This document shows, piece by piece, positions 18,346 through 59,259 of a stretch of DNA of 64,000 bases; positions within the stretch are counted from its first letter, which is position 1; each line of letters starts with the position of its first letter. The notes below the pieces were generated by a model. It had not been told where the DNA came from. It did not search any database and was given only the letters and a program-made list of their open reading frames with translations. Source of the stretch: Clostridia bacterium (lineage in GTDB: Bacteria; Bacillota; Clostridia; Lachnospirales; Lachnospiraceae); NCBI GenBank assembly GCA_910574255.1, contig CAJTAK010000012.1:62001-126000 (forward strand), given 5' to 3'. The translations under genes were made by a program, and so were the position numbers.

Positions 18346-18468
18346 GGAACTGGAATCAGCAATCACATTCCGGTGCACAGAACAATTTACAGACACATGC
18401 ATCTGTGGCTGGGAATTGTTCTCAGTAATCGTGTAGCGGAATGTGATTGCGGAACTGGAATAGGGGGA
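18346..18468 (+). repeat. Element A, copy 1
   Basis: A folded element flanked by GGAACTGGAAT on both sides. Outer stem GCAATCACATTCC (18359-18371) pairs perfectly with GGAATGTGATTGC (18438-18450). Inner stems are AGAACAATT with AATTGTTCT, and apex CACA (18394-18397) with TGTG (18404-18407). The right end supplies GGGGGA, the ribosome site of xylG. Other copies keep the same helices with different bases. Confidence 0.85.
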
Positions 18469-18476
18469 TTTTAAAG

Positions 18477-20015
18477 TTGGCGAAGATTTTATTGGAAATG
18501 AAAAGCATCACCAAAACATTCCCGGGTGTCAAGGCATTGGATAACGTGAATCTGAGAGTAGAGGAGGGCGAGATCCATGCACTGGTAGGCGAGAACGGTG
18601 CAGGAAAGTCAACGCTTATGAACGTCTTAAGCGGCATTTACCCTTACGGAACCTACGAGGGAGATATCATCTATAACGGGGAAGTCTGTAAGTTCGCAAA
18701 GATTAAGGACAGTGAAGAAAAGGGAATCGTTATTATTCATCAGGAACTGGCCCTGATTCCCTATATGACCATAGGGGAAAATATGTTCCTGGGAAATGAA
18801 AGAGGAAAGAAAGCGGCCATTGACTGGAGCGAAACCTACGGACAGGCAGACGAATATTTACGGCAGGTAGGCTTAAAGGAGTCCTCACGGACGCTGATCA
18901 AAGACATTGGCGTGGGAAAGCAGCAGCTGGTGGAGATTGCAAAGGCATTGGCAAAGCATGCCAAGCTGTTGATTCTGGATGAGCCGACGGCTTCTCTGAA
19001 TGAATCGGATTCCCAGGCACTTTTGGATCTGATGCTGGAATTCAAGAAGCAGGGCATGACTTCGATTATTATTTCTCATAAATTGAATGAGATTTCTTAT
19101 GTAGCAGATAAAATTACGGTAATCCGAGACGGCTCCACCATTGAAACCCTGGATAAGGCAGTGGATGATATCAATGAAGACCGGATTATCAAGGGAATGG
19201 TAGGCCGTGATTTGACGGACCGTTTCCCAAAACGGACGGAAAAACAGATTGGGGAGATCAACCTGGAGGTCAAAGACTGGACCGTGTATCACCCCCTTTA
19301 TACGGAACGCAAGGTGGTCGACTGTGTATCCATGAATGTGCGAAAGGGCGAGGTGGTAGGAATCTCCGGCCTTATGGGTGCCGGGCGGACGGAACTTGCC
19401 ATGAGCATTTTCGGAAAGAGCTACGGAACGAATATTTCCGGTGTCCTTAAGATCGGGGGAAAAGAGGTCGAGCTTAAGAATTCCCGGGAAGCCATTAAGA
19501 ATAAGCTGGCTTACGTAACGGAGGATCGGAAAGGCAACGGTCTGATTCTTTCCAACCCCATTAAGATTAACACCACACTGGCCAATCTGGACAGTATCAG
19601 TGCCCGTGGAGTGATTGACAAGGACAAGGAATATCAGATTGCAGTGGAGTATAAAGACAAGTTGAATACAAAGTGTCCTACGGTAGAGCAGAACGTGGGA
19701 AACTTAAGCGGCGGCAATCAACAGAAAGTTCTGCTGGCCAAATGGATGTTTGCGGATCCGGATGTTTTGATTCTTGACGAGCCTACCCGTGGTATCGATG
19801 TAGGTGCAAAATATGAGATTTATTGCATCATTAACAGCCTGGTGGCAGAGGGAAAATCCGTAATTATGATTTCTTCGGAATTGCCGGAGGTCTTGGGAAT
19901 GTGCGATCGAATTTATGTAATGAATGAGGGCAAAATGGTGGGCGAGCTTAATGCAGAGGAAGCCACACAGGAACGGATTATGGCCCAGATTTTAAAATCG
20001 AGTAAAGGAGAATAA
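18477..20015 (+). CDS. xylG: Sugar ABC transporter ATPase, XylG/MglA type
   Basis: 512 residues from TTG 18477 (eight bases after GGGGGA); the first residues then read as the usual [20 protein letters not shown]. It contains two fused ABC domains: the first with GENGAGKST (about 38-46), [11 protein letters not shown] being the signature of the second, and DEPTASLN and [16 protein letters not shown] as Walker B regions. The second Walker A is the degenerate LMGAGRTE, normal in this carbohydrate CUT2 class. It energises import with the XylH permease. TTG 18447 is the longer alternative start and lies inside element A. Confidence 0.9.
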
Positions 20016-20020
20016 ACGCT

Positions 20021-21196
20021 ATGGATAAAGCAAACATGAAAGCAATTCTACAAAAATATACCATGATTATTGTTTTGATTCTGGTTACGCTGTTTTTTAC
20101 ATGGAGAACCGGAGGAAAGATTTTACTTCCTCAGAATATTTCAAACCTGATTTCCCAGAATGCTTATGTATTTGTGCTTGCTACCGGTATGCTGCTCTGC
20201 ATCCTGACAGGCGGTAACATCGACCTTTCCGTAGGTTCTGTTGTCTGCTTTGTAGGTGCGGTGGGTGCCGTTTTAATGGAGAATTACAAGATGAATATGG
20301 GTGTGGCGGTAGTAGCCATGCTTGTGATTGGAACCCTGATTGGTGCATGGCAGGGATATTGGATTGCCTTTGTGCGGATTCCGCCCTTTATCACAACCCT
20401 TTCGGGCATGCTTGTATTCCGGGGCTTGTCCAACGTGGTACTGAACGGACTGACCATATCTCTAAATTCCGAAACCTTTATCAAAATCTTCGGCGGCGGT
20501 GCCAACTGCTTTGTGCCGGATTTCTTTGGGATGGAGGGCTTCAACCTGACCTGTATGCTGGCGGGTATTATCGCTGTTGTGATTTACATACTGCTTCAGG
20601 TAAAAGGGAGGTTGAATCGTGTAAAGAAAGGCTACGAGGTAGATCCTCTGTCCGGCATGCTCATTAAAACCGTTCTGATTTCTGCGGTGATTCTGATATT
20701 TGCCTATAAGCTGTCTCAGTATAAAGGAATACCCTCCGCCCTTCTTTGGGTTCTGATTGTGGTCCTGGTTTATGGCTACATCACTTCCAATACGACCACA
20801 GGACGCTATTTTTATGCGGTGGGCGGCAATGAAAAAGCAACAAAGCTTTCCGGTATCAATACGGATAAGGTTTACTTTATCGCTTATCTGAATATGGGCT
20901 TTCTGGCAGCCCTTGCCGGTATGCTGACCATCGCCCGTATGACATCCGCACAGCCAACCTATGGGCAGAACTACGAGATGGATGCCATCGGTTCCTGCTT
21001 TATCGGTGGTGCTTCTGCTTACGGCGGCGTGGGAACGGTTCCCGGCGTTATCGTGGGCGCTATTCTGATGGGTGTTATCAACCTGGGAATGAGCATTATG
21101 GGCGTGGATGCCAACTATCAGAGAGTTGTAAAGGGCCTTGTGCTTCTGGCAGCCGTAATCTTTGATGTGGTTTCCAAGAAAGAAGCCCAGAAATAA
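20021..21196 (+). CDS. xylH: Sugar ABC transporter permease, XylH type
   Basis: 391 residues with about ten transmembrane segments; BPD_transp_2 family. Motifs: LPQNISNLISQNAYVFVLATGMLLCI, split as ILLPQNISNLISQNAY and VLATGMLLCILTGGNIDLSVG, IPPFITTLSGMLVFRGL, TGRYFYAVGGNEKATKLSGI, IGSCFIGGASAYGGVGTVPG and GANYQR-like VDANYQRVVKGLVLLAAV. The start at 20021 follows AAAGGAG five bases past xylG. An insert of about 60 residues around positions 190-245 is typical of the XylH/GguB subgroup. Confidence 0.9.
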   Translation: MDKANMKAILQKYTMIIVLILVTLFFTWRTGGKILLPQNISNLISQNAYVFVLATGMLLCILTGGNIDLSVGSVVCFVGAVGAVLMENYKMNMGVAVVAMLVIGTLIGAWQGYWIAFVRIPPFITTLSGMLVFRGLSNVVLNGLTISLNSETFIKIFGGGANCFVPDFFGMEGFNLTCMLAGIIAVVIYILLQVKGRLNRVKKGYEVDPLSGMLIKTVLISAVILIFAYKLSQYKGIPSALLWVLIVVLVYGYITSNTTTGRYFYAVGGNEKATKLSGINTDKVYFIAYLNMGFLAALAGMLTIARMTSAQPTYGQNYEMDAIGSCFIGGASAYGGVGTVPGVIVGAILMGVINLGMSIMGVDANYQRVVKGLVLLAAVIFDVVSKKEAQK

Positions 21197-21424
21197 GAAA
21201 AGGAATTTTGTATGTAAAATACTTGTGCCTGCCGCTGTAAAGTGCTACTATAAAAATGGTTAGTTTAGTGATGAAACTAAATGGCAGGATTCAGGAACGC
21301 AGCAGAATAAGCTTTGAAACGGCAAGCTTTGTAAAGGTAAGGTGCGGCGGAACTGGAACAGAAACACCCTGCGGGTATCCCTTTATACACAAAAACATGT
21401 GCAGATCAAAGAAAGGAGAAGAGA

Positions 21425-22042
21425 ATGCAGATAAAAAGTGTAACGGACAAGGCATTTGAGAAGTATGGAAGAGTATTGGAGGTAAAGGTTCCGGATTTGC
21501 TGAAACGCTTGGAGGGAACTCCCTGTCCGGAGGATGTGGTGTATGTTGCATCTGCCTCGGAGCTTGAGGCATGTGAGGAATTTGATATGATTCAGGACAG
21601 CATTTTCGGAGGAATGCCTATTCAGATCGGTTACTGCAATGGAAATAATAATACCTTGAATGCGGTGGAGTATCACCGCAATTCGGAAATTAATATTCCT
21701 CTAACGGGCGCTGTTTTGCTGGTGGGAATGCAGCAGGATGTGGAAGCGGATTTTACATATGATACATCCAAAATGGAGGCTTTTGAAGCTCCGGCCGGCT
21801 GTGTGGTGGAGCTTTATGCCACAACTCTTCACTATGCACCCTGCAATCTCAGGGAGGATGGTTTCCGGGTGGTTATCATTCTTCCCAAGGGAACGAATAC
21901 GGAGCCGCCTGTCTTAAAAGGAGCTTCGGCAGAAGATAAGCTGATGACAGCCAGAAATAAATGGCTGATTGCACATGAGGAATCAGGGCTTGGGGCTGAC
22001 GGCGCATTTGTAGGCCTTAAAGGTGAGAACCTGAAATTGTAG
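21425..22042 (+). CDS. DUF4867-family cupin-like protein
   Basis: 205 residues, acidic and probably cytosolic. It starts at ATG 21425 behind AAAGGAG. The centre (about 85-160) resembles a cupin barrel: EINIPLTGAVLLVGMQQD, then APAGCVVELYATTLHYAPC and VVIILPKGTNTEPP. DUF4867 proteins recur beside pentose and deoxy-sugar isomerases. By analogy with cupin sugar isomerases it could act on the sugar or its anomers, but no catalytic function is known. It is in the xyl operon, ahead of the isomerase. A 228-bp spacer to xylH contains a degenerate element A left end (GGAACTGGAACAG near 21349). Confidence 0.65.
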   Translation: MQIKSVTDKAFEKYGRVLEVKVPDLLKRLEGTPCPEDVVYVASASELEACEEFDMIQDSIFGGMPIQIGYCNGNNNTLNAVEYHRNSEINIPLTGAVLLVGMQQDVEADFTYDTSKMEAFEAPAGCVVELYATTLHYAPCNLREDGFRVVIILPKGTNTEPPVLKGASAEDKLMTARNKWLIAHEESGLGADGAFVGLKGENLKL

Positions 22043-22044
22043 TT

Positions 22045-22272
22045 GGAACTTAAAACAGTAATATCCATGCAGTGCACAAATCGAATTACAAGCGCATGGA
22101 CTTGTGATTGTAATTTGATTTAGATAAAGGTGTACTGAAAGGATATTACGGAACTTAAAACAGTAATATCCTTGCAGTGCACAAATCGAATTACAAGCGC
22201 ATGGACTTGTGATTGTAATTTGATTTAGATAAAGGTGTACTGAAAGGATATTACGGAACTTTAAATAGGAGG
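22045..22272 (+). repeat. Element A, copies 2 and 3: near-perfect 105-bp tandem duplication
   Basis: Units at 22045-22149 and 22150-22254 differ at one visible position (CCATGC against CCTTGC), and a third GGAACT follows at 22255 with TTTAAATAGGAGG. Each unit folds: GTAATATCC (22058-22066) with GGATATTAC (22141-22149), CAGTGCAC with GTGTACTG, and AAATCGAATTACAA with TTGTAATTTGATTT (one G-U). The right end supplies the ribosome site for the isomerase gene at 22281. Confidence 0.9.
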
Positions 22273-22280
22273 TACATATT

Positions 22281-23765
22281 ATGATTAATATTCCATCTGT
22301 AAAAGTGGGAATTGTAGCAGTAAGTCGAGATTGTTTCCCGGAATCTCTGTCCGTAAACAGGAGAAAAGCTCTGGTAAAGGCTTATGAGGACAAATACGGA
22401 ACAGCAGACATTTACGAATGTCCCATCTGCATCGTGGAGAGTGAGATCCATATGGTGCAGGCCTTAGAGGATGTAAAGAAAGCCGGATGTGACGCTTTAG
22501 CAGTTTACCTGGGCAACTTCGGACCGGAGATATCCGAAACACTTCTGGCAAAGCATTTTGACGGTCCCGTTATGTTTGTGGCGGCAGCCGAGGAATCGGG
22601 AGATTCCCTGATCCAGGGCCGTGGCGATGCCTACTGCGGCATGCTGAATGCAAGCTACAACTTAAAGCTCCGCAACGTGCGTGCCTATATTCCCGAGTAT
22701 CCGGTGGGAACCGCAGAGGAATGCGCCGACATGATACACGAGTTTCTCCCTATTGCCCGTGCCATCGTAGGATTAAGCAGTCTCAAGATCATCAGCTTTG
22801 GACCGAGACCCTTAAACTTCCTGGCCTGCAATGCACCCATTAAGCAACTCTACAACCTGGGTGTGGAGATTGAGGAGAACTCCGAACTGGATCTCTTTGA
22901 GGCATTCAATAAACATGCGGATGATCCCAGGATTCCCGATGTGGTAAAGGACATGGAAGAAGAGCTGGGCGAGGGCAACCAGAAACCCCAGATTCTCTCC
23001 AAGCTGGCCCAGTATGAGCTGACCTTGCTTGACTGGGTGGAGGAGCACAAGGGCTACCGGAAATACGTTGCCATCGCAGGAAAATGCTGGCCGGCGTTCC
23101 AGACCCAGTTCGGCTTTGTTCCCTGTTATGTAAACAGCCGTCTTACCGGGCGTGGGATACCCGTATCCTGCGAGGTAGATATCTATGGAGCGCTCAGTGA
23201 GTTTATTGGAACCTGCGTAAGCCAGGATGCGGTGACGCTGCTTGACATTAACAATACGGTTCCCGCAGATATTTATAAAGAAGAGATCGCACCGAAGTAC
23301 GATTATACACACAGGGATACCTTTATGGGCTTCCACTGCGGCAATACCTGTTCCAAGAAGCTGTCCTCCTGCTCCATGAAGTATCAGCTTATCATGGCAA
23401 GAAGCCTGCCGGAGGAAGTAACCCAGGGAACCCTGGAGGGCGATATTGTGCCTGGCGATATTACGTTCTTCCGTCTGCAGAGTACGGCTGACTGCAAGCT
23501 GCGGGCATATGTGGCACAGGGGGAGGTGCTTCCTGTTGCGACACGTTCTTTCGGAGCCATCGGTATCTTCGCCATTCCGGAGATGGGACGTTTCTATCGC
23601 CATGTACTCATTGAGGGGAATTATCCTCATCACGGCGCCGTGGCTTTTGGGCATTACGGGAAAGCGCTGTTTGAGGTATTTAAGTACCTGGGTGTGGAGC
23701 CGGATGAGCTTGGCTTCAATCAGCCTAAGGGGATGCTGTATAAGACGGAGAATCCTTTTGGGTAA
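22281..23765 (+). CDS. L-fucose/L-arabinose isomerase-family protein
   Basis: 494 residues. By family this is a metal-dependent aldose-ketose isomerase. Candidate catalytic residues are the Glu in CEVDIYGALSEF, the Asp in LLDINNTV and the His pair in GNYPHHGAVAFGH, spaced as in fucose isomerase (Glu, Asp, His). It sits between the xylFGH/DUF4867 genes and xylulokinase, and no xylA is present in the locus, so it is inferred to isomerise the imported pentose (D-xylose or a related aldopentose) to the ketose used by the kinase. It is preceded by tandem element A. The alternative is an L-arabinose or D-arabinose isomerase. Confidence 0.8.
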   Translation: MINIPSVKVGIVAVSRDCFPESLSVNRRKALVKAYEDKYGTADIYECPICIVESEIHMVQALEDVKKAGCDALAVYLGNFGPEISETLLAKHFDGPVMFVAAAEESGDSLIQGRGDAYCGMLNASYNLKLRNVRAYIPEYPVGTAEECADMIHEFLPIARAIVGLSSLKIISFGPRPLNFLACNAPIKQLYNLGVEIEENSELDLFEAFNKHADDPRIPDVVKDMEEELGEGNQKPQILSKLAQYELTLLDWVEEHKGYRKYVAIAGKCWPAFQTQFGFVPCYVNSRLTGRGIPVSCEVDIYGALSEFIGTCVSQDAVTLLDINNTVPADIYKEEIAPKYDYTHRDTFMGFHCGNTCSKKLSSCSMKYQLIMARSLPEEVTQGTLEGDIVPGDITFFRLQSTADCKLRAYVAQGEVLPVATRSFGAIGIFAIPEMGRFYRHVLIEGNYPHHGAVAFGHYGKALFEVFKYLGVEPDELGFNQPKGMLYKTENPFG

Positions 23766-23805
23766 AATGGAGAGATGATATTACGGTAATGTGTTGATGG
23801 CGGAC

Positions 23806-24014
23806 GGAGTTGCCGCAAAATAAGCCGGCAGACATTTCCATATCTGTGTTCGGACGATTTGCGTACACTCTGTATGCTCTGAACGGACACCACCTGGGAG
23901 CTTTTCGTTAGTTGAACAGCTTTTGAGGTAGTGTCCGTTCATATCATACATAGCGTTCGCAAATAGCCGGACACCTGATATCGGAAATGCCTGCCGGCTT
24001 ATTTTGCGGCAACT
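23806..24014. repeat. Element C, copy 2: about 209-bp long-arm hairpin
   Basis: Arms of about 90 nt (23806-23896 and 23924-24014) are reverse complements with few mismatches, including a GC-rich base that differs from copy 1 yet still pairs. The internal helix TTTGCG (23858-23863) / CGCAAA (23958-23963) replaces TTCACG/CGTGAA of copy 1. It lies in the 400-bp gap between the isomerase and xylB, next to element A copy 4. No coding frame of interest is present in this gap. Confidence 0.8.
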
Positions 24015-24036
24015 CCTGTGAAAGTGGTAATATTGC

Positions 24037-24160
24037 GGAACTGTAAACAGTAATATCCCTTGCAATGCACAAATTGATTTACAGACATATGCTTTTATGG
24101 CTGTAAATTGATTTAGGCTAGGGTGTATTGGAAAGGATGTTATGGAACTGGAATGGAGGC
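24037..24160 (+). repeat. Element A, copy 4
   Basis: GTAATATCC (24050-24058) pairs with GGATGTTAT (24135-24143, two wobbles). The apex is CATA (24086-24089) with TATG (24096-24099), a third Watson-Crick solution for this helix. It is flanked by GGAACTG on both sides and ends in GGAGG, the ribosome site of xylB. Confidence 0.8.
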
Positions 24161-24165
24161 TTTAT

Positions 24166-25638
24166 ATGTTGTATGTAGGAATTGATCTGGGAACCTCGGC
24201 GGTGAAGCTGTTGTTGATGGATGGAACAGGAAAGATTGAGAAAATTGTATCCAGGGAATATCCCCTGTATTTTCCCAATCCCGGCTGGTCCGAGCAGAAT
24301 CCTGAGGACTGGTATACACAGTCCCTGGATGGCTTAAAGGAACTGCTTGCAGACTGCGACCGGTCTCAGGTGGCAGGGATCAGCTTTGGCGGCCAGATGC
24401 ATGGTCTTGTGGTTCTTGACAAGGATGATCAGGTGATACGCCCGGCCATTCTCTGGAACGATGGAAGAACGGGTGAGGAGACGGATTACTTAAATCAGGA
24501 GATTGGGAAAGATAAGCTGTCCGAATACACTGCAAATATTGCGTTTGCGGGATTTACGGCACCAAAGGTGCTTTGGGTGAGGAATCATGAGCCGGAGAAT
24601 TTTGCACGGATTGAGAAGCTGATGCTGCCTAAGGATTACCTTGCTTACCGGCTGTCCGGGACTTTCTGCACGGATGTGTCAGATGCTTCCGGTATGCTGC
24701 TCTTTGATGTGAAAAATAAATGCTGGTCCAGGGAAATGATGGAGATCTGCGGCATAAAGGAGACACAGCTTCCGAAGATTTTTGAGAGTTATGAGATTGT
24801 GGGAACGCTGAAGCCGGAGCTGGCAGAGGAATTGGGGCTTTCGGAAAATGTAAAGATTGCAGCAGGAGCCGGAGACAATGCCGCCGCCGCTGTGGGAACG
24901 GGAACCGTAGGGGAAGGAAGCTGCAACATTTCTCTGGGAACCTCGGGAACCATTTTCATCTCCAGTGAAAAATTCGGTGTTGATGCCCACAACGCACTTC
25001 ACTCCTTTGCCCATGCGGACGGCCATTTTCACTTAATGGGCTGTATGCTGAGCGCCGCTTCCTGCAATAAGTGGTGGATGGATGAGATTCTAAAAACCAA
25101 GGACTATGCAGGAGAGCAGACGGGCATCAAAGAGCTTGGAAAGAACAATGTATTTTTCCTGCCCTATCTTATGGGCGAGCGCAGCCCCCACAACAATCCC
25201 AACGCCAGGGGGACCTTTATGGGAATGACCATGGACACTACAAGAGAGGATATGACCCAGGCAGTTTTGGAGGGCGTTGCCTTTGCTCTTCGGGATTCCT
25301 TTGAGGTGGCAAAGGCCCTGGGAATCCGGATTGAACGGACCAAGATCTGCGGCGGAGGAGCCAAGAGCCCTCTGTGGAGGCAGATGATTGCGGATATCTT
25401 CAATATTATGGTGGACATTCCTGAGAGTGAGGAGGGTCCGGCCATGGGCGGCGCTATGCTGGCAGCCGTGGCCTGCGGCGAGTACGCAAGTGTGGAGGAA
25501 GCGGCTTCTAAGATTGTGAAGATTGTAGACACAGTAGAGCCAATTCCGGAGAATGCGGCACGCTATGAGAAGCAGTATCAGAAGTTCCGCCAGATTTATC
25601 CGGCGGTAAAGGAATTATTTGATGTGATACAGCCATAA
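24166..25638 (+). CDS. xylB: Xylulokinase
   Basis: 490 residues, FGGY carbohydrate kinase. The start is ATG 24166 behind GGAGG; ATG 24142 lies inside element A. The ATPase-fold N-terminus reads YVGIDLGTSAVKLLLMDG. ISFGGQMHGLVVLD carries the GQMHG motif typical of D-xylulokinase, followed by AILWNDGRT. The second domain has AGAGDNAAAAVGTG, SLGTSGTIF and GGGAKSPLWRQMIADI. It phosphorylates the ketopentose from the isomerase to xylulose 5-phosphate, which enters the pentose phosphate pathway. It is the last gene of the operon, before a strong terminator. Confidence 0.92.
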   Translation: MLYVGIDLGTSAVKLLLMDGTGKIEKIVSREYPLYFPNPGWSEQNPEDWYTQSLDGLKELLADCDRSQVAGISFGGQMHGLVVLDKDDQVIRPAILWNDGRTGEETDYLNQEIGKDKLSEYTANIAFAGFTAPKVLWVRNHEPENFARIEKLMLPKDYLAYRLSGTFCTDVSDASGMLLFDVKNKCWSREMMEICGIKETQLPKIFESYEIVGTLKPELAEELGLSENVKIAAGAGDNAAAAVGTGTVGEGSCNISLGTSGTIFISSEKFGVDAHNALHSFAHADGHFHLMGCMLSAASCNKWWMDEILKTKDYAGEQTGIKELGKNNVFFLPYLMGERSPHNNPNARGTFMGMTMDTTREDMTQAVLEGVAFALRDSFEVAKALGIRIERTKICGGGAKSPLWRQMIADIFNIMVDIPESEEGPAMGGAMLAAVACGEYASVEEAASKIVKIVDTVEPIPENAARYEKQYQKFRQIYPAVKELFDVIQP

Positions 25639-25661
25639 GAAAGGGATGCGAATAAAAAGAA

Positions 25662-25705
25662 ACCCTCAATGGACAAGGTGTGTGGTTCTCTTGTCCGTTG
25701 AGGGT
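25662..25705 (+). terminator. Terminator of the xyl operon
   Basis: A 16-bp stem (25662-25677 with 25690-25705, one G-U) and a 12-nt loop, followed by ATTATTTAA. It is strong and close to the xylB stop. Confidence 0.8.
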
Positions 25706-25717
25706 ATTATTTAATAG

Positions 25718-25918: not shown

Positions 25919-26034
25919 ACAGACGGCAAAAACTGGACTGGTTAATTTTTTCATTACTGGCTATTTTGTTCAAGCCAGAGTTGCAATACAATGTGAGAGA
26001 ACAAAAAAGTCATGGAAAGAAAAGAGGTTTTGTT

Positions 26035-26571: not shown

Positions 26572-26576
26572 ATATT

Positions 26577-26605: not shown

Positions 26606-26629
26606 GTATCCAGTTATATAAACCGGCAG

Positions 26630-26843: not shown

Positions 26844-26850
26844 ATAGCTA

Positions 26851-44882: not shown

Positions 44883-44897
44883 CGGAACTTAAAACAG
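44883..44897 (+). repeat. Element A left-end fragment
   Basis: GGAACTTAAAACAGT is identical to the left end of element A copies 2 and 3, but the rest of the element is missing. Element B copy 2 follows at 44946. Confidence 0.6.
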
Positions 44898-44945
44898 TCC
44901 AGCTAAGAAATGTCAAGCGTTTACTAAAAATATTTTCTGCTGAAC

Positions 44946-45074
44946 GGTAAAGTCGCAAAGGCGCACGAGAGGAACTTTCATGAGTGCCCTTTCGAATGAA
45001 AGTTTCTCTCATTACAAGTGTGTCGAAGCGACTTTACCCTTTAGTACTGTTGCGTAGCAACTTAAAATAGGAGG
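44946..45074 (+). repeat. Element B, copy 2 (complete)
   Basis: Outer stem GGTAAAGTCGC (44946-44956) pairs perfectly with GCGACTTTACC (45028-45038). An inner 15-bp stem (44967-44981 with 44996-45010, one G-U) is next. Then GTTGC-GTA-GCAAC (45049-45061) and TTAAAATAGGAGG end the element. AGGAGG (45069-45074) is the ribosome site of the following TTG-started gene. It fills the 207-bp gap between pgk and the second transketolase. Confidence 0.85.
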
Positions 45075-46891: not shown

Positions 46892-47021
46892 GGAAATTGT
46901 GAAACAGTAATACCCTTTTCAGTGCACAAATCGATTTACAGACGCACGTATTTGCGGCTGGAAATTGATTTAGGCTAAGGTGTACTGAGAGGGGGATTAC
47001 GGAACTGGAATAGCAAGGAGG
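46892..47021 (+). repeat. Element A, copy 5
   Basis: GTAATACCC (46907-46915) pairs with GGGGATTAC (46992-47000, one mismatch). CAGTGCAC pairs with GTGTACTG, AAATCGATTT with AAATTGATTT (one G-U), and apex CGCA (46943-46946) with TGCG (46953-46956). It ends with GGAACTGGAATAGCAAGGAGG, giving the iolB ribosome site. Confidence 0.85.
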
Positions 47022-47029: not shown

Positions 47030-47809
47030 ATGGTAAAAGAATTTGATTATCCCAAGTTTATGCCGGATGGCGTTCAACATTTGACCCTGGATCATGGGGA
47101 GAACAGCTGGATGAGTACTTCGGTTTACAGGATGAAGGAGGGGGAAGTACGGAAGTTTCAGTTTGCAGATCAGGAACAGGCATTTTTGCTGATGTATGGA
47201 GATGCGGAATTTTGGTGGAACGATCAGAAGGAGCGTATAGCCCGTAAGACGTTTTTTGACCAGGGAGAGGGTACGGCCTGCCTGCATGTATGCAGGGGTA
47301 CGGAGGTAACTGTTACGGCTTTTGCAGAAACGGAAATTATGTGGGAAGCTACTGAAAATGAACGGGAATTTTCTGCAAAGCTTTATCATGCGGACGAGAT
47401 TTCCAATGTGATAGTGGGGGAAGAACTTTGCGGGGGAACATGCACACGCCGTGTGACTACCATTATAGATTACAATAATGCTCCATACTCCAATCTTGTG
47501 ATTGGAGAAACTTATACTATGCAAGGATCCTGGGCGGGATATCCGCCTCATGGACACCGACAGCCGGAGGTTTATTATTACCGCACGGACAAGCCCCAGG
47601 GATTTGGAGCCTGCTTTATAGGAGATGAGGCGTATGTCATTAAGGACAGAAGTGTTTCGATACTTTTGGACGGAAGAACTCATCCGCAGGTTACGGCGCC
47701 CGGATATCAGTTGTATATCGTGTGGATGATTCGGCATCTGCCGGATGATCCATGGGTTGACCGTATTGAGGATCCGGAACATGTGTGGGTGAGAAAAGCC
47801 CAATTTTAA
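47030..47809 (+). CDS. iolB: IolB-like 5-deoxy-glucuronate isomerase family protein
   Basis: 259 residues, bicupin KduI/IolB superfamily. The C-terminal cupin has GSWAGYPPHGHRQPEVYYYR (metal His/His/Glu), PQGFGACFI, VIKDRSVSIL and APGYQLYIVWMIRHL, which resemble IolB (SYPPHKH, EETYY, DRS, PAGYH). IolB converts 5-deoxy-D-glucuronate to 2-deoxy-5-keto-gluconate in inositol breakdown. No other iol gene is present, so an analogous aldose-ketose isomerisation of another sugar acid is likely. The start is behind GGAGG of element A. Confidence 0.75.
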   Translation: MVKEFDYPKFMPDGVQHLTLDHGENSWMSTSVYRMKEGEVRKFQFADQEQAFLLMYGDAEFWWNDQKERIARKTFFDQGEGTACLHVCRGTEVTVTAFAETEIMWEATENEREFSAKLYHADEISNVIVGEELCGGTCTRRVTTIIDYNNAPYSNLVIGETYTMQGSWAGYPPHGHRQPEVYYYRTDKPQGFGACFIGDEAYVIKDRSVSILLDGRTHPQVTAPGYQLYIVWMIRHLPDDPWVDRIEDPEHVWVRKAQF

Positions 47810-50251: not shown

Positions 50252-50267
50252 GAGGAGGAAAAATCTT

Positions 50268-52591: not shown

Positions 52592-52608
52592 GCCGGGGTG
52601 ATAAGCAG

Positions 52609-52653
52609 GACTTTACCCTTTCGTACCGTTGCGTAGCAACTTAAGATAGGAGG
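52609..52653 (+). repeat. Element B, copy 3 (right end only)
   Basis: GACTTTACCCTTTCGTACC, hairpin GTTGC-GTA-GCAAC (52628-52640), then TTAAGATAGGAGG. AGGAGG (52648-52653) is the ribosome site of the malic enzyme gene. Confidence 0.75.
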
Positions 52654-52662
52654 TATTTTATA

Positions 52663-53850
52663 ATGAAAGAATCAATGACAATTGGAGAGCGGAGTCTTAA
52701 GCTTCATGGAGAATGGAAGGGAAAGATTGAAATAATGTCCAGAGTTCCTGTAAAGACAAGGGAGGATCTGTCTTTGGCCTATACACCGGGGGTGGCGGAG
52801 CCGTGTTTGGAGATTCAAAAGGATGTGGAAAAGTCCTATGAATATACCAACCGCTGGAATAGCTGTCTGGTGGTGACAGACGGGACAGCAGTTTTGGGAC
52901 TGGGGGATATTGGCCCTGAGGCCGGAATGCCGGTGATGGAAGGAAAATGTGTGCTGTTCAAGGAATTTGGAAATGTAGATGCTTTTCCGCTTTGTATTAA
53001 GAGTAAGGATGTGGATGAGATTGTCCGCACGATCTATCTGATCTCCGGCAGCTTTGGAGGTGTAAATTTGGAAGATATCTCAGCACCCCGATGCTTCGAA
53101 ATTGAGAAGCGCTTGAAGGAGCTCTGTGACATACCCGTTTTTCATGACGATCAACATGGAACGGCAGTAATTACTTTGGCGGGCTTGACGAATGCTCTGC
53201 GGTTGGTTGGTAAAGAGATTTCGAAGATTCGGATTGTGGTAAATGGAGCCGGGGCCGCTGCTATTTCCATCAGTCGCCTGCTTTTGACTGCCGGGGCCAG
53301 GGACATTACCCTGTGCGACCGCGCAGGAGCTATTTATGAGGGCAGGGAAAAGGGAATGAACCCGGTGAAAGAGAACATAGCTCTGGTAACCAATCAAGAC
53401 AAGCGTTCAGGAAGTCTGACTGATGTGATTGCGGGAGCAGATGTATTTATTGGAGTCAGTGCTCCGGGAAGCCTCACCGCAGAGATGGTGCGGACCATGG
53501 CGGATGACGCAATTATTTTTGCCTGTGCCAATCCTGCGCCGGAGATAGATCCGGCGGATGCGAAGGCAGGGGGAGCACGGGTAATTGCTACAGGAAGAAG
53601 TGATTATCCGAACCAAATCAATAATGTACTGGCTTTTCCGGGAATTTTTCGGGGAGCCTTTGATGTACGGGCCAGGGATATTAATGATGAGATGAAGCTT
53701 GCGGCTGCTACCGCCCTTGCAGATCTCATTTCTGAAAAAGACCTCAAAGAAGACTACATCATTCCGGCAGCTTTTGACCCAAGAGTAGGGAAGGCGGTTG
53801 CCCAAGCGGTGGGTGAGGCGGCCAGGAGGACCGGGGCTGCAAGAATATGA
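52663..53850 (+). CDS. NAD(P)-dependent malic enzyme
   Basis: 395 residues, the short bacterial form. LSLAYTPGVAEPCLEI, VTDGTAVLGLGDIGPEAGMPVMEGK (blocks at about 70-94), DIPVFHDDQHGTAVI (metal-binding Asp) and IVVNGAGAAAISISRLLL (dinucleotide fold) are diagnostic. FACANPAPEI and PNQINNVLAFPG are also conserved. It converts malate to pyruvate and CO2 with reduction of NAD(P). Its start is set by the AGGAGG of element B copy 3. A link to LarA may be a hydroxyacid such as malate. Confidence 0.92.
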   Translation: MKESMTIGERSLKLHGEWKGKIEIMSRVPVKTREDLSLAYTPGVAEPCLEIQKDVEKSYEYTNRWNSCLVVTDGTAVLGLGDIGPEAGMPVMEGKCVLFKEFGNVDAFPLCIKSKDVDEIVRTIYLISGSFGGVNLEDISAPRCFEIEKRLKELCDIPVFHDDQHGTAVITLAGLTNALRLVGKEISKIRIVVNGAGAAAISISRLLLTAGARDITLCDRAGAIYEGREKGMNPVKENIALVTNQDKRSGSLTDVIAGADVFIGVSAPGSLTAEMVRTMADDAIIFACANPAPEIDPADAKAGGARVIATGRSDYPNQINNVLAFPGIFRGAFDVRARDINDEMKLAAATALADLISEKDLKEDYIIPAAFDPRVGKAVAQAVGEAARRTGAARI

Positions 53851-53920
53851 TTGGGATATCAAAGGATACGGGTTTTGAAAAATAAAAATAAGTTTTTCTG
53901 AAAATAATTTATAAAACCCA

Positions 53921-53949
53921 TTGACGTCCCCCGCACTTTTATATATAAT
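53921..53949 (+). promoter_or_regulatory. Strong sigma-A promoter of the pot operon
   Basis: TTGACG (53921-53926), 17 bp, TATAAT (53944-53949). It gives a leader of about 170 nt before potD. Confidence 0.8.
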
Positions 53950-53956
53950 GCAAAGT

Positions 53957-54085
53957 GCGGGGAAGCGTTAAAAAAGAGCCTCGCCTAATATGGTGGTTTC
54001 ATTCGGAGACGGATGGGGTTCATTGGTTAGAAGCACATAGGACGGGAAAGTCAGTAAAGCTTTCTCCAGTCCTATTTTTTTATGC
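53957..54085 (+). promoter_or_regulatory. pot leader with intrinsic terminator (attenuator candidate)
   Basis: Stem TAGGAC (54038-54043) with GTCCTA (54069-54074), extended by GGGAAAG/CTTTCTC, precedes ATTTTTTTAT. The terminator lies between the promoter and potD, so transcription must read through. The upstream 80 nt contain GGTTTCATTCGGAGACGG and GGGGTTCATTGG but match no riboswitch I can name with confidence. Confidence 0.55.
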
Positions 54086-54094
54086 ATTAGCACA

Positions 54095-54117
54095 TATTAC
54101 GGAACTAAATTGGGAGG
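54095..54117 (+). repeat. Element A right-end fragment before potD
   Basis: ATATTACGGAACTAAATTGG and the following GAGG equal the right end of element A (ATATTACGGAACTDDAATAGGAGG). No left half is present. GGGAGG (54112-54117) is the potD ribosome site. Confidence 0.55.
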
Positions 54118-54125
54118 AACATAAG

Positions 54126-55181
54126 GTGAAAAGAAGAGTAATTGCGTTATTCGTGACAACAATGCTTTTGATGACGTTATTTTCCGGATGCGGAAAAAAG
54201 GACAGTGGGGAGAAGCTGTATTTATATAACTGGACGGAGTATATACCCCAGAATGTCTATGATGCTTTCGAGGAGGAGACGGGAATCAAGGTCATAGAAT
54301 CCACATTTTCCTCTAATGAGGAGATGCTTGCCAAGCTGACGGCAGGCGGCTCTGATCAGTACGACCTGGTAATGGCAAGCTGCTATGTGGTAGAAGCTAT
54401 GGTAGAACAGGATCTGATTCAGCCAATACATAAGGAGAATCTGGAGAATCTGGGCAATATCAGTGCTACAGCTTTGAATCAGGATTTTGATCCGGATAAC
54501 GAGTACTCGATTCCCTTTATGAGCACCATTACCGTGATTGCCGTAAATAAGGAAAAATGCAAGGAACTGGGCGTGGAGATCAAAACCTTTGACGACCTCC
54601 TAAATCCGGCCCTGGAAAATAATATTGTAGCCGTGGACGACGTCCGTGAGATTGTAGGAATCGCTCTGAAAGCCCAGGGACAGGATTCCAACAGCCGTGA
54701 CCAGGCGGTTATCGAGGCCGCACTGCCCTGGCTTCTAAAGCTTCAGCCCAATATTAAGGCCTATGACAGCGACAGTCCCAAGACCCTGCTGGCGGCCAAT
54801 GACGTGGCTGTGGGCATTGTTTACAATACGGACGCAGGAATGGCAATCAAGGAAAATCCGGATATTGATGTGGTATTCACAGAAGAGCCCTGCCAGATTT
54901 CCATGGACAATTTCGTAATGACCGCCAATGCCCAGAATGTGGAGAATGCGGAGAAATTCATAGACTTTATCCACAGGCCGGAGATTTATAAAATGATTTT
55001 GGATGAATTCCCGAGCGTGTGTCTCAATGATGCGGCTCTTGAGGTTCTGGACGAGGAATATCTGAACAATCCGGGGAGCAACGTAGAAGCTTCCGAGATT
55101 GAACGGGCCGATATGATCGGGGAAGTGGGCGATGCGGTTGTCTGGTATGACGAAGTGTTTACGAAAATGAAGACCAATTAG
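54126..55181 (+). CDS. potD: Spermidine/putrescine-binding lipoprotein
   Basis: 351 residues from GTG 54126, eight bases after GGGAGG; a longer frame from 53955 reads through the terminator and is rejected. The signal peptide ends in LFSGC (Cys22). The mature protein begins KLYLYNWTEYIPQNVYDAFE, the PotD/PotF start, followed by LTAGGSDQYDLVMASCYVVE, AVDDVREIVGIALKAQG, GIVYNTDAGMAIKENP and MDNFVMTANAQNVENAEKFIDF. It delivers polyamines to PotABC. First gene of the operon. Confidence 0.92.
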   Translation: MKRRVIALFVTTMLLMTLFSGCGKKDSGEKLYLYNWTEYIPQNVYDAFEEETGIKVIESTFSSNEEMLAKLTAGGSDQYDLVMASCYVVEAMVEQDLIQPIHKENLENLGNISATALNQDFDPDNEYSIPFMSTITVIAVNKEKCKELGVEIKTFDDLLNPALENNIVAVDDVREIVGIALKAQGQDSNSRDQAVIEAALPWLLKLQPNIKAYDSDSPKTLLAANDVAVGIVYNTDAGMAIKENPDIDVVFTEEPCQISMDNFVMTANAQNVENAEKFIDFIHRPEIYKMILDEFPSVCLNDAALEVLDEEYLNNPGSNVEASEIERADMIGEVGDAVVWYDEVFTKMKTN

Positions 55182-55195
55182 TGAGGGAGGCTGCT

Positions 55196-55534
55196 ATGAA
55201 GAAGATTGAGATTATAACAAGGCCGGATAAACTGGATATTATCAAAAAAATATTGGCAAAAAACGAATACTCGGGTATGACCGTGACTGCGGCCATGGGC
55301 TGCGGGCGGCAGAAAGCAGATGCAAAGGATTTTGAGGAACTGAATCTGGATATGAATCTTTTGCCGAAGATTCATGTAATGACGGTAGTGTGGGATGAGG
55401 ATCTGGAGGAAATACTCTGCGAGCTGCAGCAGAAGCTGACCACGGGAAGCGTGGGAGACGGCAAGATCTTTATTTCAACAATTGATGATGTGATGCGGAT
55501 TCGGACAGGGGAGCGTGGATACAAAACCCTGTAG
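55196..55534 (+). CDS. P-II family signalling protein within the pot operon
   Basis: 112 residues from ATG 55196 behind GAGGGAGG. The PII/GlnB fold is recognisable: MKKIEIITRPDKLDIIKKIL, TAAMGCGRQKA at the start of the T-loop (Gln of the GRQK motif kept), LLPKIHVMTVVWDEDLEEI and TGSVGDGKIFISTIDDVMRI with RTGERG. The residue aligned with the uridylylated Tyr51 is Leu, so classical modification is excluded. It lies between potD and potA, so it probably controls or senses the transporter through ATP, ADP and 2-oxoglutarate. Membrane-complex-associated PII proteins are known for AmtB, but for this transporter it is an inference. Confidence 0.82.
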   Translation: MKKIEIITRPDKLDIIKKILAKNEYSGMTVTAAMGCGRQKADAKDFEELNLDMNLLPKIHVMTVVWDEDLEEILCELQQKLTTGSVGDGKIFISTIDDVMRIRTGERGYKTL

Positions 55535-55551
55535 CAGGGGAGGAACATTGG

Positions 55552-56700
55552 ATGGAGCGAAGCAGAGATAAGGTAATTATCCGTCTGCAGGATGTAGATA
55601 AAAACTTTGATGATGACAGGGTAGTAAAGAAGCTGAATCTTAATGTGGAAGAGGGAGAGTTTCTGACTATGCTTGGGCCCTCGGGCTGCGGCAAGACAAC
55701 GACCCTGCGGATGATAGCGGGCTTTGAATATCCCACCTCCGGACAGATTTTTCTGGAGGGCACGGACGTGGAGGGGAAGAAGCCCAATGAACGGGATGTG
55801 AATACGGTATTTCAGAATTATGCCCTTTTTCCCCATATGAATGTCTTTGACAATATCGCTTTCGGACTGGTGGAGAAGAAAGTAAAAAAGGATGAGATCC
55901 GCCGCAGGGTGGAGGAGATGATCAAACTGGTGCGTCTGGACGGACTGGAAAAGCGGATGCCCTCCCAGATGTCCGGAGGACAAAAGCAGCGGGTAGCCAT
56001 TGCCCGGGCGTTGGTGAACCGGCCCAAGGTGCTGCTTTTGGATGAGCCTTTGGGAGCACTGGATCTGAAGCTCCGCAAGCAGATGCAGGTGGAGCTGAAG
56101 CATTTGCAGAAGCAGTTGGGCATTACGTTTATCTATGTTACCCATGATCAGGAGGAAGCCCTGACCATGAGCGACCGAATTGCTGTTATGAATCAGGGAA
56201 ATCTGGAGCAGGTGGGAACGCCGGAGGAGATCTACAATCATCCGGAGACGAAATTTGTGGCGGATTTTATAGGAGAGTCCAATATTATTGAGGGCTATAT
56301 AGAGGAAATGACAGAGGATTCCATTGAAGTAACCATGGAATCGGGAAAGGCCAGAATCAGGGAGACGGGCTACCGCCTGGAAGAGATGGTATATCTCTGC
56401 GTGCGGCCGGAGAACCTGAAGCTTTCTATGGAGCCGGTGGAGGGATTCCGGTTCCGGGGGCAGGTTCGGGAGCATATCTTTGTGGGCTCTATCAATAAGA
56501 CCATGGTAGAGCTTCCCAATGGACAGATGCTCAAAGCCGAGACGCCGGCGGAGGACGATTTGATTCCGGTTGGAACCGTGGTGAATGTGTACTGGAATCC
56601 GGGAAAGGTTGTAGTGATGCGGACTAAGGAAGAGCAGATCTACAATGTGATTGAGCAGTCTGTTAAGATAGAGGGAATGACCAATGATCAAATCTTTTAA
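55552..56700 (+). CDS. potA: Spermidine/putrescine ABC transporter ATPase
   Basis: 382 residues. Walker [11 protein letters not shown]-loop [16 protein letters not shown], signature [16 protein letters not shown], Walker [17 protein letters not shown] and H-loop [16 protein letters not shown] are typical of PotA. A C-terminal TOBE regulatory domain spans about 275-365. The start at ATG 55552 is 17 bp after the PII gene behind GGGAGG-type sequence (GGGGAGG). It overlaps potB by 17 bp. Confidence 0.95.
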
Positions 56701-57538
56701 GAAGCGTCTGGGTGTGATTACTACAGTGGGACCTACGGTTCTGTGGCTGGCGGCATTTCTTATGATTCCGCTTATCTATGTGATAGGAATCACTTTTTTG
56801 ACAAAAAATGCTTATGGGGGTGTGGATTTTACATTCACCCTTTCGAATTATGCCAGTTTGTTTCAGAGCGAGTATGCAAAGGTGTTTTTTGATTCCCTTT
56901 TGCTTTCCCTGGAAACTACAGTGATCTGTCTGCTGGCGGGCTATCCCTTTGCCTATATTATTGCTAATGCACCCAGGAAATGGAAGCCTGTACTGGTGCT
57001 GCTTTTGATGCTTCCTTTCTGGACAAACTCGCTGATTCGTACTTATGGGTGGAATACGCTTCTCCGCACAGAGGGAATTATCAATCATTTTCTGCAGGGA
57101 ATCGGAATCATTGATCGTCCTTTGGAGATGCTTTATACGGACGGGGCGGTGCTGCTTGGTATGGTGTATGCCCTGCTGCCCTTTACGGTTCTGCCCATTC
57201 ATACATCTATTGAGAAGTTAGATCCCTCTCTTTTGGAAGCGGCGGGGGATCTGGGGGCAGGCAGGGTGCATGTGTTTACCAGAGTCATTCTTCCTCTCAC
57301 TATGCCAGGGATTTTTGCAGGATCGATTCAGACCTTTATTCCGTCACTTGGATTTTTCTTTATCTCGGATATGATGGGCGGGGCAAAGACCATGTATATT
57401 GGAAACTTGATTAAAAATCAGTTCCTGTCGGCCAGAAACTGGCCCCTAGGTGCGGTACTGTCCATTGTGCTGATTGTGATTACGCTGATTCTGATGAAGC
57501 TCTACACCAGAGTGGGGAGCTTGGAAGACATGGCTTAG
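56684..57538 (+). CDS. potB: Spermidine/putrescine ABC permease PotB
   Basis: 284 residues with six transmembrane segments, binding-protein-dependent permease. LPFWTNSLIRTYGWNTLL and the cytoplasmic EAA loop (LLEAAGDLGAGRVHVFTRVILPLTMPG, read as SLLEAAGDLGAGR and FTRVILPLTMPGIFAG) identify PotB. It is translationally coupled to potA. A 265-bp gap with element D copies separates it from potC. Confidence 0.93.
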   Translation: MIKSFKKRLGVITTVGPTVLWLAAFLMIPLIYVIGITFLTKNAYGGVDFTFTLSNYASLFQSEYAKVFFDSLLLSLETTVICLLAGYPFAYIIANAPRKWKPVLVLLLMLPFWTNSLIRTYGWNTLLRTEGIINHFLQGIGIIDRPLEMLYTDGAVLLGMVYALLPFTVLPIHTSIEKLDPSLLEAAGDLGAGRVHVFTRVILPLTMPGIFAGSIQTFIPSLGFFFISDMMGGAKTMYIGNLIKNQFLSARNWPLGAVLSIVLIVITLILMKLYTRVGSLEDMA

Positions 57539-57540
57539 GC

Positions 57541-57686
57541 ATGAGCCGTGCGGAAAAAGACAGATTGTGCCAGACGTTGTGCTAGCACATAAGGCTGGCA
57601 CAATCTGTCTTTTTCCATAGGGCGAAGCCCGTCCAGCGAAATGGAGCAAGGCGAAATTGAGCTGGCTCACGGCGGGGTAGATTATT
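57541..57686 (+). repeat. Element D, copy 2
   Basis: Outer stem GCCGTG (57545-57550) with CACGGC (57668-57673) encloses a perfect 22-bp stem (57552-57573 with 57595-57616) whose loop contains GTTGTGCTAGCACATAAG, then GGGC-GAA-GCCC (57620-57630) and CCAGC/GCTGG (57633-57637, 57661-57665). It ends CGGCGGGGTAGATTATTTA, as in copy 1. It begins three bases after the potB stop. Confidence 0.8.
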
Positions 57687-57703
57687 TACATGAATCAAAG
57701 GCA

Positions 57704-57780
57704 TTCAGGCGTTGTGCTGGCACATAAGCCTAAACCGGTTTGGCTTTTTCCATAGAGCGAGATAGAGCAAAGCAGAATGT
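57704..57780 (+). repeat. Element D, copy 3 (partial)
   Basis: GGC-GTTGTGCTGGCACATAA-GCC (57708-57730) repeats the conserved loop of copy 2. AAACCGGTTTGG and CTTTTTCCATAGAGCGA correspond to its right side, but the long stem is missing. It ends close to the potC start region. Confidence 0.65.
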
Positions 57781-57803
57781 TGCGGAAAAGAAAGGTGATG
57801 CAT

Positions 57804-58604
57804 ATGAAAAAGCAGAGAAACGTACGTGAATTTAAGCCGGGCAGTGTATTTTATGCCTGCCTTATTTATCTCTTTCTATACCTGCCCATCTTTGTAGTGA
57901 TTGCATTTTCTTTTAACACTTCTAAAATGAACATTACCTTTGAGGGCTTCACTCTGGAATGGTACGGAAAAATGTTTGAAAACCGGCAGCTTATGCAGTC
58001 CTTTTTCAACACCATAATCGTAGCGGGAGTGAGCACAATTCTTTCCGTAATTCTGGGGACGCTGTGTGCTCTCGGACTCTATAAATTTGAGTTTAAGCTA
58101 AAAAATGCTTTAAACAGTGCTTTATATATCCCCATTGTAATTCCGGAACTGGTATTTGCCATTGCCCTGCTGATTTTCTTTACATCCTTAAATGTCAGCA
58201 TGAGCATGGCCACGCTGATTATTGCCCATGTAACCTTTTCCATGCCCTTTGTGGTGATTACGGTTCGGGCAAGGCTGGCAGGCTTTGATCATTCCATTGA
58301 AGAAGCGGCCAGGGACCTGGGAGCCAACGAGCTTCATACCTTTTGGCGTGTAACGCTGCCTATGATCTCTCCGGGAGTAATTTCCGGAGGAATGCTGGCA
58401 CTTACCATGTCTCTGGATGATGTGGTGGTCAGCTTCTTTACCGCAGGGCCGGAGAGTACGACCCTGCCCTTAAAGATTCTTGGTATGGTTCGTAAAGGCG
58501 TGTCTCCGGATGTGAATGCGCTGTCAACCCTGATGATCGTGGGGACGATTGTGATTCTTTTGACTTCAACCATGATTCAGGGGCGTTTGGAGAGGAAGAT
58601 GTAA
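57804..58604 (+). CDS. potC: Spermidine/putrescine ABC permease PotC
   Basis: 266 residues from ATG 57804 (AAAGGTG upstream); ATG 57798 and 57777 are in-frame alternatives. Six transmembrane helices. LYLPIFVVIAFSFNTSKM and the EAA loop SIEEAARDLGANELHTFWRV with LPMISPGVISG are family-typical, as is LSLDDVVVSFFTAG-like MSLDDVVVSFFTAGPESTTL. It pairs with PotB to form the channel. The insertion of element D between potB and potC may alter the subunit ratio. Confidence 0.92.
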   Translation: MKKQRNVREFKPGSVFYACLIYLFLYLPIFVVIAFSFNTSKMNITFEGFTLEWYGKMFENRQLMQSFFNTIIVAGVSTILSVILGTLCALGLYKFEFKLKNALNSALYIPIVIPELVFAIALLIFFTSLNVSMSMATLIIAHVTFSMPFVVITVRARLAGFDHSIEEAARDLGANELHTFWRVTLPMISPGVISGGMLALTMSLDDVVVSFFTAGPESTTLPLKILGMVRKGVSPDVNALSTLMIVGTIVILLTSTMIQGRLERKM

Positions 58605-58629
58605 ATAATGAAAGGAGCTGGCAAAACCA

Positions 58630-59073
58630 TTGTTTCATATAGAGAAGATGCAGGAGAGCATGCGTGACAAGGTTCTCCCTATGGTGCAGGAGTTTTACCA
58701 TAGTGATGCGGTGTGCCATCCGGTAAAGTCTGCGGTGCTTGAGCGGACCTTTGAGGATGCGGTCAGTGAAGATCCGGTATTGGAAGGCTATGTTTTGATG
58801 GAGGATGAAGAAATCATAGGCTTTGGCTATACGACCATCTTTTATGCCTGCGAGGTAGGCGGCAGATGTATGATGTTTGAGGAGCTTTATTTAAAAAAGG
58901 AAACCAGAGGCAAAGGGTATGGAAGCCGCTTTTTTCAGGAAGTGATGAAGCAGCACCCGGAGGTGATGCGCTTTCGGCTGGAGGTAACCAGAAGCAATGA
59001 AGCGGCAGTGCGTTTGTATGAGCGTCTGGGATTTGCTTTTTTGGAATATGATCAGATGGTATTGGATCGGTAA
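58630..59073 (+). CDS. GNAT-family N-acetyltransferase
   Basis: 147 residues from TTG 58630, twelve bases after AAAGGAG. The acetyl-CoA-binding region is LYLKKETRGKGYGSRFFQEV (motif R..G.G) with VTRSNEAAVRLYERLGF, the usual GNAT motif B end. The acceptor is unknown; its position directly after potC suggests a polyamine or another amine, but this is only positional. The stop codon (59071-59073) lies inside the left end of element B copy 4. Confidence 0.85.
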   Translation: MFHIEKMQESMRDKVLPMVQEFYHSDAVCHPVKSAVLERTFEDAVSEDPVLEGYVLMEDEEIIGFGYTTIFYACEVGGRCMMFEELYLKKETRGKGYGSRFFQEVMKQHPEVMRFRLEVTRSNEAAVRLYERLGFAFLEYDQMVLDR

Positions 59074-59145
59074 AGTCGCAAAGTTTCTCTCATTACAGGT
59101 GTGCCCAAGTGACTTTACCCTTTCGTACTGTTGCATAGTAACTTA
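59069..59145 (+). repeat. Element B, copy 4 (internally deleted)
   Basis: GGTAAAGTCGC (59069-59079) pairs with GTGACTTTACC (59109-59119, one mismatch). The left arm of the inner hairpin of copy 2 is missing. GTTGC-ATA-GTAAC (59130-59142) follows, with a G-U pair. It runs straight into element A copy 6. Confidence 0.75.
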
Positions 59146-59259
59146 AAACAGTAATATCCTGCCGGTGCACAAATCGATTTACTGACGCAGATCTAAGCGG
59201 CTGGAAATTGATTTAGACAGAGGTGTACCGACAGGATATTACGGAAGTGTAATAGGAGG
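59139..59259 (+). repeat. Element A, copy 6
   Basis: GTAATATCCTG (59151-59161) pairs perfectly with CAGGATATTAC (59232-59242). CGGTGCAC (59163-59170) with GTGTACCG (59223-59230) changes an A-T pair of copies 2, 3 and 5 into G-C. Ends in AATAGGAGG (59251-59259), the ribosome site of the phosphorylase gene. Confidence 0.85.

Follow-up and report, generated by a model that had tools for sequence, protein, structure and literature searches.

The described systems closest in kind to the element reported here are small interspersed hairpin repeats of bacteria. Correia repeats (CREE/NEMIS) of Neisseria are mostly 104–108 or 153–157 bp long, are mobile between strains, lie in many cases 5′ of genes, and are transcribed into RNA hairpins that are bound or cut by RNase III (PMC2649163, PMC2229807). 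ERIC (IRU) elements of enterobacteria are interspersed inside operons, with a reported orientation-dependent effect on the mRNA (PMC2229807, PMC3049150). REP/RAYT elements are 20–40 bp long, are tagged with GTAG or CGTC, and have G-T pairs as well as alternative paired residues in their stems (PMC3733652); the BOX, RUP and SPRITE repeats of pneumococcus are over-represented between convergent genes, where least harm is expected (PMC3049150), and repeats bcr1–bcr18 of the Bacillus cereus group are intergenic, about half expressed, often found in untranslated regions (UTRs) and operons, and in some cases endowed with a conserved RNA structure (PMC3446304). Here we describe element A, a repeat of roughly 105 nt (repeat family D1) with six copies in a 64,000-nt stretch, the window, of contig CAJTAK010000012.1 (positions 62,001–126,000) from a Clostridia bacterium of the Lachnospiraceae (GCA_910574255.1, genome G000). 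Element A belongs with the small interspersed hairpin repeats; its new traits are sense-oriented anchoring at Shine–Dalgarno sites and covarying stems. We think it likely that it is a small, non-autonomous mobile hairpin, inserted in the sense orientation directly 5′ of Shine–Dalgarno sites and selected as RNA.

Element A resembles the Correia repeats in size, in its predicted RNA hairpin, in its probable mobility and in the position of many copies 5′ of genes. The ends of CREE, however, are inverted repeats and their target sites TA (sometimes CA), whereas the stems of element A covary, no clear duplication accompanies it and it keeps a single orientation directly before Shine–Dalgarno sites; the Correia/NEMIS hallmark of a fixed terminal inverted repeat with a TA duplication is thus absent, the duplication being judged at one clean site. 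REP elements, too, are hairpins in high copy number whose stems show G-T pairs and alternative paired residues. Element A differs in having AACAG and GGAACT at its ends, with neither GTAG nor CGTC tagging the base of the hairpin, and in being about 105 rather than 20–40 nt long. The genome does have Y1_Tnp matches, which do not track the element; a cognate mobilizer may have been lost. The pneumococcal repeats lie between convergent genes, while element A lies just before gene starts, mostly inside operons. ERIC elements share the placement inside operons, and the bcr repeats share intergenic placement, frequent location in UTRs or operons and, for some, conserved RNA structure; both have other hosts, and Shine–Dalgarno anchoring is unmentioned for ERIC in the accessible text. 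The comparisons with BOX, RUP, ERIC and bcr rest on descriptions of these families. The initial annotation of the window knew of no matching family, and we find none in Rfam or in the literature searched: Rfam 15 gives no match on element A at gathering score in the window, only a glycine riboswitch (RF03166, 26623–26808); among four element loci of about 90, searched at E up to 5, only a lysine riboswitch upstream of dapA reaches gathering score; and no report of the family was found in a literature search that mostly did not reach subscription sources.

The six copies named in the initial annotation are all present and all on the + strand, with limits taken from a covariance model. Copy 1 (18355–18462) consists of the hairpin and the GGAACT tail and is followed by GGGGG (18463–18467) and a TTG start at 18477, which opens what we take from its sequence to be a sugar ABC transporter ATPase gene. 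Copies 2 (22054–22158) and 3 (22159–22266) form a tandem pair, the latter followed by AGGAGG (22267–22272) and an ATG at 22281. Copy 4 (24046–24155) has a bare A tail upstream (GGAACT at 24037) and leads to GGAGG (24155–24159) and an ATG at 24166. Copies 5 (46903–47012) and 6 (59147–59254) lead to AGGAGG at 47016–47021 and 59254–59259, with ATG at 47030 and 59266, respectively. The claim that each copy has the following gene's ribosome site at its end thus holds for five of the six, the copy at 22054 running directly into the next tandem copy. The end fragments proposed alongside them fared unequally: at 54101–54111 there is a bare A tail on the + strand (GGAACTAAATT, with TTAC before it) followed by GGGAGG, with no hairpin remaining and a tail in G007 too; at 44884–44896 (+) an A 3′ tail (GGAACTTAAAACA) stands directly 5′ of a hairpin of a second family, element B, which itself ends at a Shine–Dalgarno site; and the fragment at 21349 is merely tail-like, with no Shine–Dalgarno site directly after it.

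The predicted fold of element A is one long hairpin composed of an outer helix, a GTGCAC/GTGTAC-type helix, a third helix and an apical hairpin, with a bulge of some 8 nt, confined to the 3′ side, between the second and third of these helices. The element begins with AACAG and ends with CGGAACTNNAAA(T). Folded singly, five of the six window copies (all but that at 22054) give z-scores of −5.9 to −7.9 relative to dinucleotide shuffles. The tandem pair has an alternative predicted fold, one long duplex of both copies, so the copies of an array need not fold one by one. The base-pair changes listed in the initial annotation are correct, further ones occur, and pairing is kept far above chance. 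An alignment of 13 copies has 94.9% of its cells paired and double-sided changes at 14 pairs, compared with 5.1 in shuffles. Among 126 matches from the source genome, 92.7% of cells are paired and 694 cells carry double-sided changes, versus 204.5±10.4 in shuffles and 71–108 in slid controls. For 21 copies from five other genera (G028, G212, G223, G310 and G319; 20 stretches from 48 listed matches, mostly the best), the corresponding values are 90.5% and 152 cells, versus 47.5±5.3 shuffled and 17–27 slid.

The conservation is also asymmetric between strands. Read on the mRNA strand, wobble cells are G·U in 301 cases and A·C in 42 in the source genome, and 52 and 6 in the other genera. Of 124 copies, 89 have A·G, 24 have G·A and 6 have G·G as the internal mismatch at columns 51:160; at a second internal mismatch, 97 have A·G and 10 have G·G (n = 124). 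The one-sided bulge has no bases opposite and measures 8 nt in 98 copies, 7 in 21, 9 in 5 and 6 in 1 (n = 125). One antisense match (L090) in the underlying alignment, A3, was kept for the 126-match covariation and wobble counts and removed for the mismatch and bulge counts. These sequence patterns support a fold that is probably selected as RNA of the mRNA strand.

Further copies are abundant in the source genome (5.04 Mb in 78 contigs). A DNA search with one copy returns 53 matches, the query included. With a covariance model built from 13 copies, the 150 scored of 2284 first-look candidates all matched, leaving at least 142 non-overlapping copies after overlapping antisense matches were dropped; this is a lower bound because only 150 candidates were scored, and it includes a few weak matches. 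The 142 copies fall into 107 clusters (78 single, 23 double and 6 triple), and within each of the 29 arrays all copies lie on one strand with a period of 103–115 nt. The 5′ end of a copy lies within 6 nt of an upstream tail in 95 of the 142 cases, the tail being of A type in 66, A-like in 11 and of B type in 18. The pattern CGGAACTNNAAN{0,4}GGAG, a search for 3′ tails that leaves 5′-only remnants outside its count, occurs 79 times in the genome and not once when read backwards. Twenty-four of these tails lie outside the scored copies, and of the 21 that were viewed, 5 prove to be complete A copies, about 5 keep both ends around a shortened hairpin, 3 are 5′-truncated and 8 amount to little more than the tail. 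One A copy (L056, within positions 2001–2156) carries a palindrome of about 48 nt inserted near the bulge, perhaps a further small mobile repeat.

Placement relative to genes is equally regular. A co-directional gene start lies no more than 28 nt past the element end in 98 of the 107 clusters, where a script looked downstream on the element's own strand only and chose the start with the best Shine–Dalgarno fit; at the chosen starts (n = 101) the match to the Shine–Dalgarno sequence is 6 of 6 letters in 51, 5 in 41 and 4 in 9. The GGAACT tail begins about 10–12 nt 5′ of the Shine–Dalgarno site in 83 of the 98. The nearest long upstream open reading frame (ORF), assigned by a longest-ORF rule, is co-directional in 93 of the 107 clusters. 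Nine clusters have no start within 28 nt by the script: a B element follows five of them (L046, L061, L074 at 302357, L089 and L120), three show a Shine–Dalgarno site and start by eye (L057, with a 47-codon ORF; L074 at 300434; L082), and L041 has another repeat after it. Inspected by eye, 15 of the 21 copies from other genera lead directly to a start (12 through a GGAG-type site, 3 through a weaker one), 4 continue into a further unit and 2 are ambiguous. The translated genes downstream of A copies are, going by the names we presume for them, of unrelated kinds.

A role in opening the Shine–Dalgarno site is unsupported: predicted openness is 0.534 in the native context and 0.524 with the element removed (p = 0.65), with the native value higher in 41 of 98 cases, and is 0.495 with the element shuffled (p = 0.006). 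That the site is predicted to be about as open with the element as without it favors, over a dedicated switch, a mobile insert that folds as RNA and is tolerated. An intrinsic terminator was rejected because no U tract follows the hairpin; instead there is the tail GGAACTNNAAA(T) and then the Shine–Dalgarno site.

Mobility, one of the two options raised in the initial annotation, is supported both by near-identical copies at unrelated genes and by orthologous sites that are filled in one species and empty in another. The C11 and C16 copies are 99.1% identical and stand at different genes, with a B-type tail before both and differing flanks beyond it. They share their 3′ tail, which differs from the upstream tail, and the tail was rejected as a target duplication on these grounds. 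At dapA, compared across 16 genomes of the genus, element A is present in G000 (after the lysine riboswitch, L101 1750–1924) and G002, remnants are present in G005 and G012, the site is empty in G007 and G013, and the other ten genomes lack A. At serC in the same genomes, A occurs in G000 and G012, B in G002 and G005, a 5′-shortened B in G007 and G013, and neither in the other ten. Syntenic stretches from five species show that the copy at 18355 of the window is common to G000 and G007 and that further sites differ: the site of copy 4 (24046) holds only a tail in G007, and the site before the ORF at 13915, where the window has the 3′ end of a B element, is occupied by A in G005 and by tandem B in both G007 and G013.

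The clearest filled and empty pair precedes what is presumably a diacylglycerol-kinase-like gene. In the empty state the stop codon TAA is followed by AAGGAGAGG (G000) or AAAGGAGAGG (G012); in G007 a 101-nt A match overlaps the last A of the stop and extends up to GGAGAGG, for a net gain of about 98 nt. Eroded copies occupy this site in G002 and G013, other short spacers are found in G006 and G004, and G005 has about ten extra bases starting with ACAG, perhaps a scar. In the eight genomes free of the element the upstream gene is mostly another one, which precludes a comparison here. At this one clean site there is no target duplication beyond a few A residues, and no TA duplication. A Shine–Dalgarno-type site is present with or without the element at dapA, serC and the diacylglycerol-kinase-like gene, which indicates that the element does not bring it.

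A search of Lachnospiraceae genomes, suggested with the initial annotation, finds element A in 7 of 15 further genomes of the genus and in 1 of 45 outside it (up to 63 candidates scored per genome), and, with up to 13 candidates scored per genome, in 6 of 299 genomes of the family, G000 included, that is, in five further genera. A class-wide scan found it in none of 390 other genomes, with 9 candidates scored per genome under strict filters, so that matches may be missed; viral contigs gave no match to a 20-base core pattern. Named records hold 10 stretches with the strict core pattern, from three 'Clostridia bacterium' assemblies (whose MGBC contig names presumably point to a catalogue of the mouse gut), Lachnoclostridium sp. 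S30_Bin3 and Bacterium 1XD21-13.

In the mechanism that we propose, element A would be an interspersed element of some gut Lachnospiraceae that is inserting now, or did so recently, mostly inside operons. A new copy seems to enter between the Shine–Dalgarno site and the tail already present, and repeated insertion of this kind would produce tandem arrays of one orientation. Within the mRNA the element would form one long hairpin that is predicted to leave the Shine–Dalgarno site as open as it is without the element, and hence to be tolerated there. The mobilizing step may read the folded strand, and the hairpin may affect mRNA processing or decay. A helix of this length is an expected RNase III substrate, and by analogy with the Correia and ERIC elements an effect on mRNA processing is plausible. 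The initial annotation had proposed either a function in RNA or hairpin-dependent mobility; selection on the RNA-sense fold and mobility itself are both supported, whereas a role in expression and the dependence of mobility on the hairpin are our inferences. Of the outcomes that the annotation had set against itself none arose, given the further copies, the pairing above chance and the lack of an Rfam match. With its many copies, element A amounts to an experiment replicated by nature on the effect that a long hairpin beside a Shine–Dalgarno site has on translation and mRNA decay, and it poses the question of an enzyme that targets ribosome sites.

Several points weigh against this reading. 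The only enzyme families tried as mobilizers, Y1_Tnp and RVT_1, do not track the element, and no mobilizing gene was found. Only one filled and empty pair is clean, the other sites being eroded or occupied by other elements. Because the aligned copies are related to one another and both alignments (A3 and A4) were fitted to the model, the shuffle counts are not probabilities. Two columns with habitual wobble contribute 129 of the 301 G·U cells, and part of the G·U excess could stem from mutational strand bias. Finally, the hairpin is placed within the mRNA by its position in the sequence, and its presence there is to that extent presumed.

Four other explanations bear on how the element moves, or whether it moves at all. 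It is possible, if on balance doubtful, that element A is a REP-like single-strand DNA element whose imperfect hairpin is recognized by a Y1 (HUH) transposase with CCTCCT, the Shine–Dalgarno complement on the other strand, as target. An imperfect hairpin with a bulge, a fixed orientation to a short flanking motif and the lack of a clear target duplication all fit the mechanism of such enzymes, as known from IS200/IS605, and the source genome has six Y1_Tnp matches. Short-pattern searches (not the model) around these six loci, however, gave isolated single hits and no recognizable A element; Y1_Tnp is absent from the carriers G004, G006 (83% complete) and G007 and present in the element-free G001, G008 and G015; G·U is in excess on the mRNA strand rather than on the strand with CCTCCT; and the GTAG/CGTC tag is missing. 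Another route is RNA-templated mobility, in which the hairpin RNA would be copied into DNA at a nick beside the Shine–Dalgarno site while its own AGGAGG pairs with the target, so that each new copy would be fixed by its 3′ end and many would be 5′-truncated. Sense-only placement, the constant 3′ junction, the RNA-type conservation (G·U excess and conserved mismatches) and the existence of tail-only and 5′-truncated copies agree with this, but RVT_1 is absent from the carriers G012 (92% complete) and G006, and deletion explains the truncated copies equally well, and 5′-only remnants fall outside the tail count; we regard this route as unlikely. We are similarly skeptical of the proposal that A is a new kind of bacterial mobile element, moving as folded RNA and finding its target through the Shine–Dalgarno sequence, with A and B as two members sharing architecture and tail. 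Were it true, the commonest short motif ahead of genes would serve as the target, giving a sense landing upstream of the start that spares the gene.

A further alternative is a host-evolved, vertically inherited leader RNA, riboswitch-like or protein-binding, that regulates many operons. Strong covariation, conserved non-canonical pairs, the place before the Shine–Dalgarno site and the orthologous copy at 18355 common to G000 and G007 are what such a leader would show, but sister species differ in its presence at the same gene, sites hold A, B or neither, tandem arrays occur, the presumed downstream genes are of unrelated kinds, and neither an alternative terminator nor a fold that blocks the site came to notice, although no search aimed at one was made. 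We hold a leader RNA to be improbable. Plain inverted-repeat DNA of the miniature type (MITE), its hairpin no more than the trace of terminal repeats that a DDE transposase reads, would account for a palindromic, intergenic, high-copy element of about 100 bp, but not for the G·U/A·C asymmetry or the lack of a clear target duplication; stem sequences vary between copies with pairing kept, which leaves no fixed terminal repeat to recognize and makes this explanation very unlikely. The mobile, RNA-selected hairpin remains the reading that we prefer.

Element B, the second hairpin family, is about 175 nt long, with 15 unique copies in the DNA examined, and differs from A in sequence while having a comparable long predicted hairpin and a tail like GCAACTTAARATAGGAGG. 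Its copies end at Shine–Dalgarno sites or at an A element. The copy in the window (44897–45070, + strand) has a similar tail (GCAACTTAAAATAGGAGG) and a 7-nt 3′-side bulge in the corresponding place. Repeat family D2 corresponds to parts of B, all on the + strand: a 3′ part upstream of A copy 6 (59080–59146) and 3′ ends before the ORFs at 13915 (13869–13904, TACCCTTTAGTACCGTTGCGCAGCAACTTAAGATAG) and 52663 (52609–52649). The L061 copy agrees with seven others at 91 or 92 of 93 core positions, which makes recent activity of B probable. A motif like CCCTGCGGGTATCCCTTT recurs beside some A and B copies (window 21359, L041 and L046) and is possibly a third repeat. The window also contains a repeat pair of about 220 nt, 70% identical (10912–11129 and 23799–24016, families D3 and D4), with GCCGGACAC motifs, and a 55-nt direct repeat, 78% identical, at 57571–57625 and 57706–57760.

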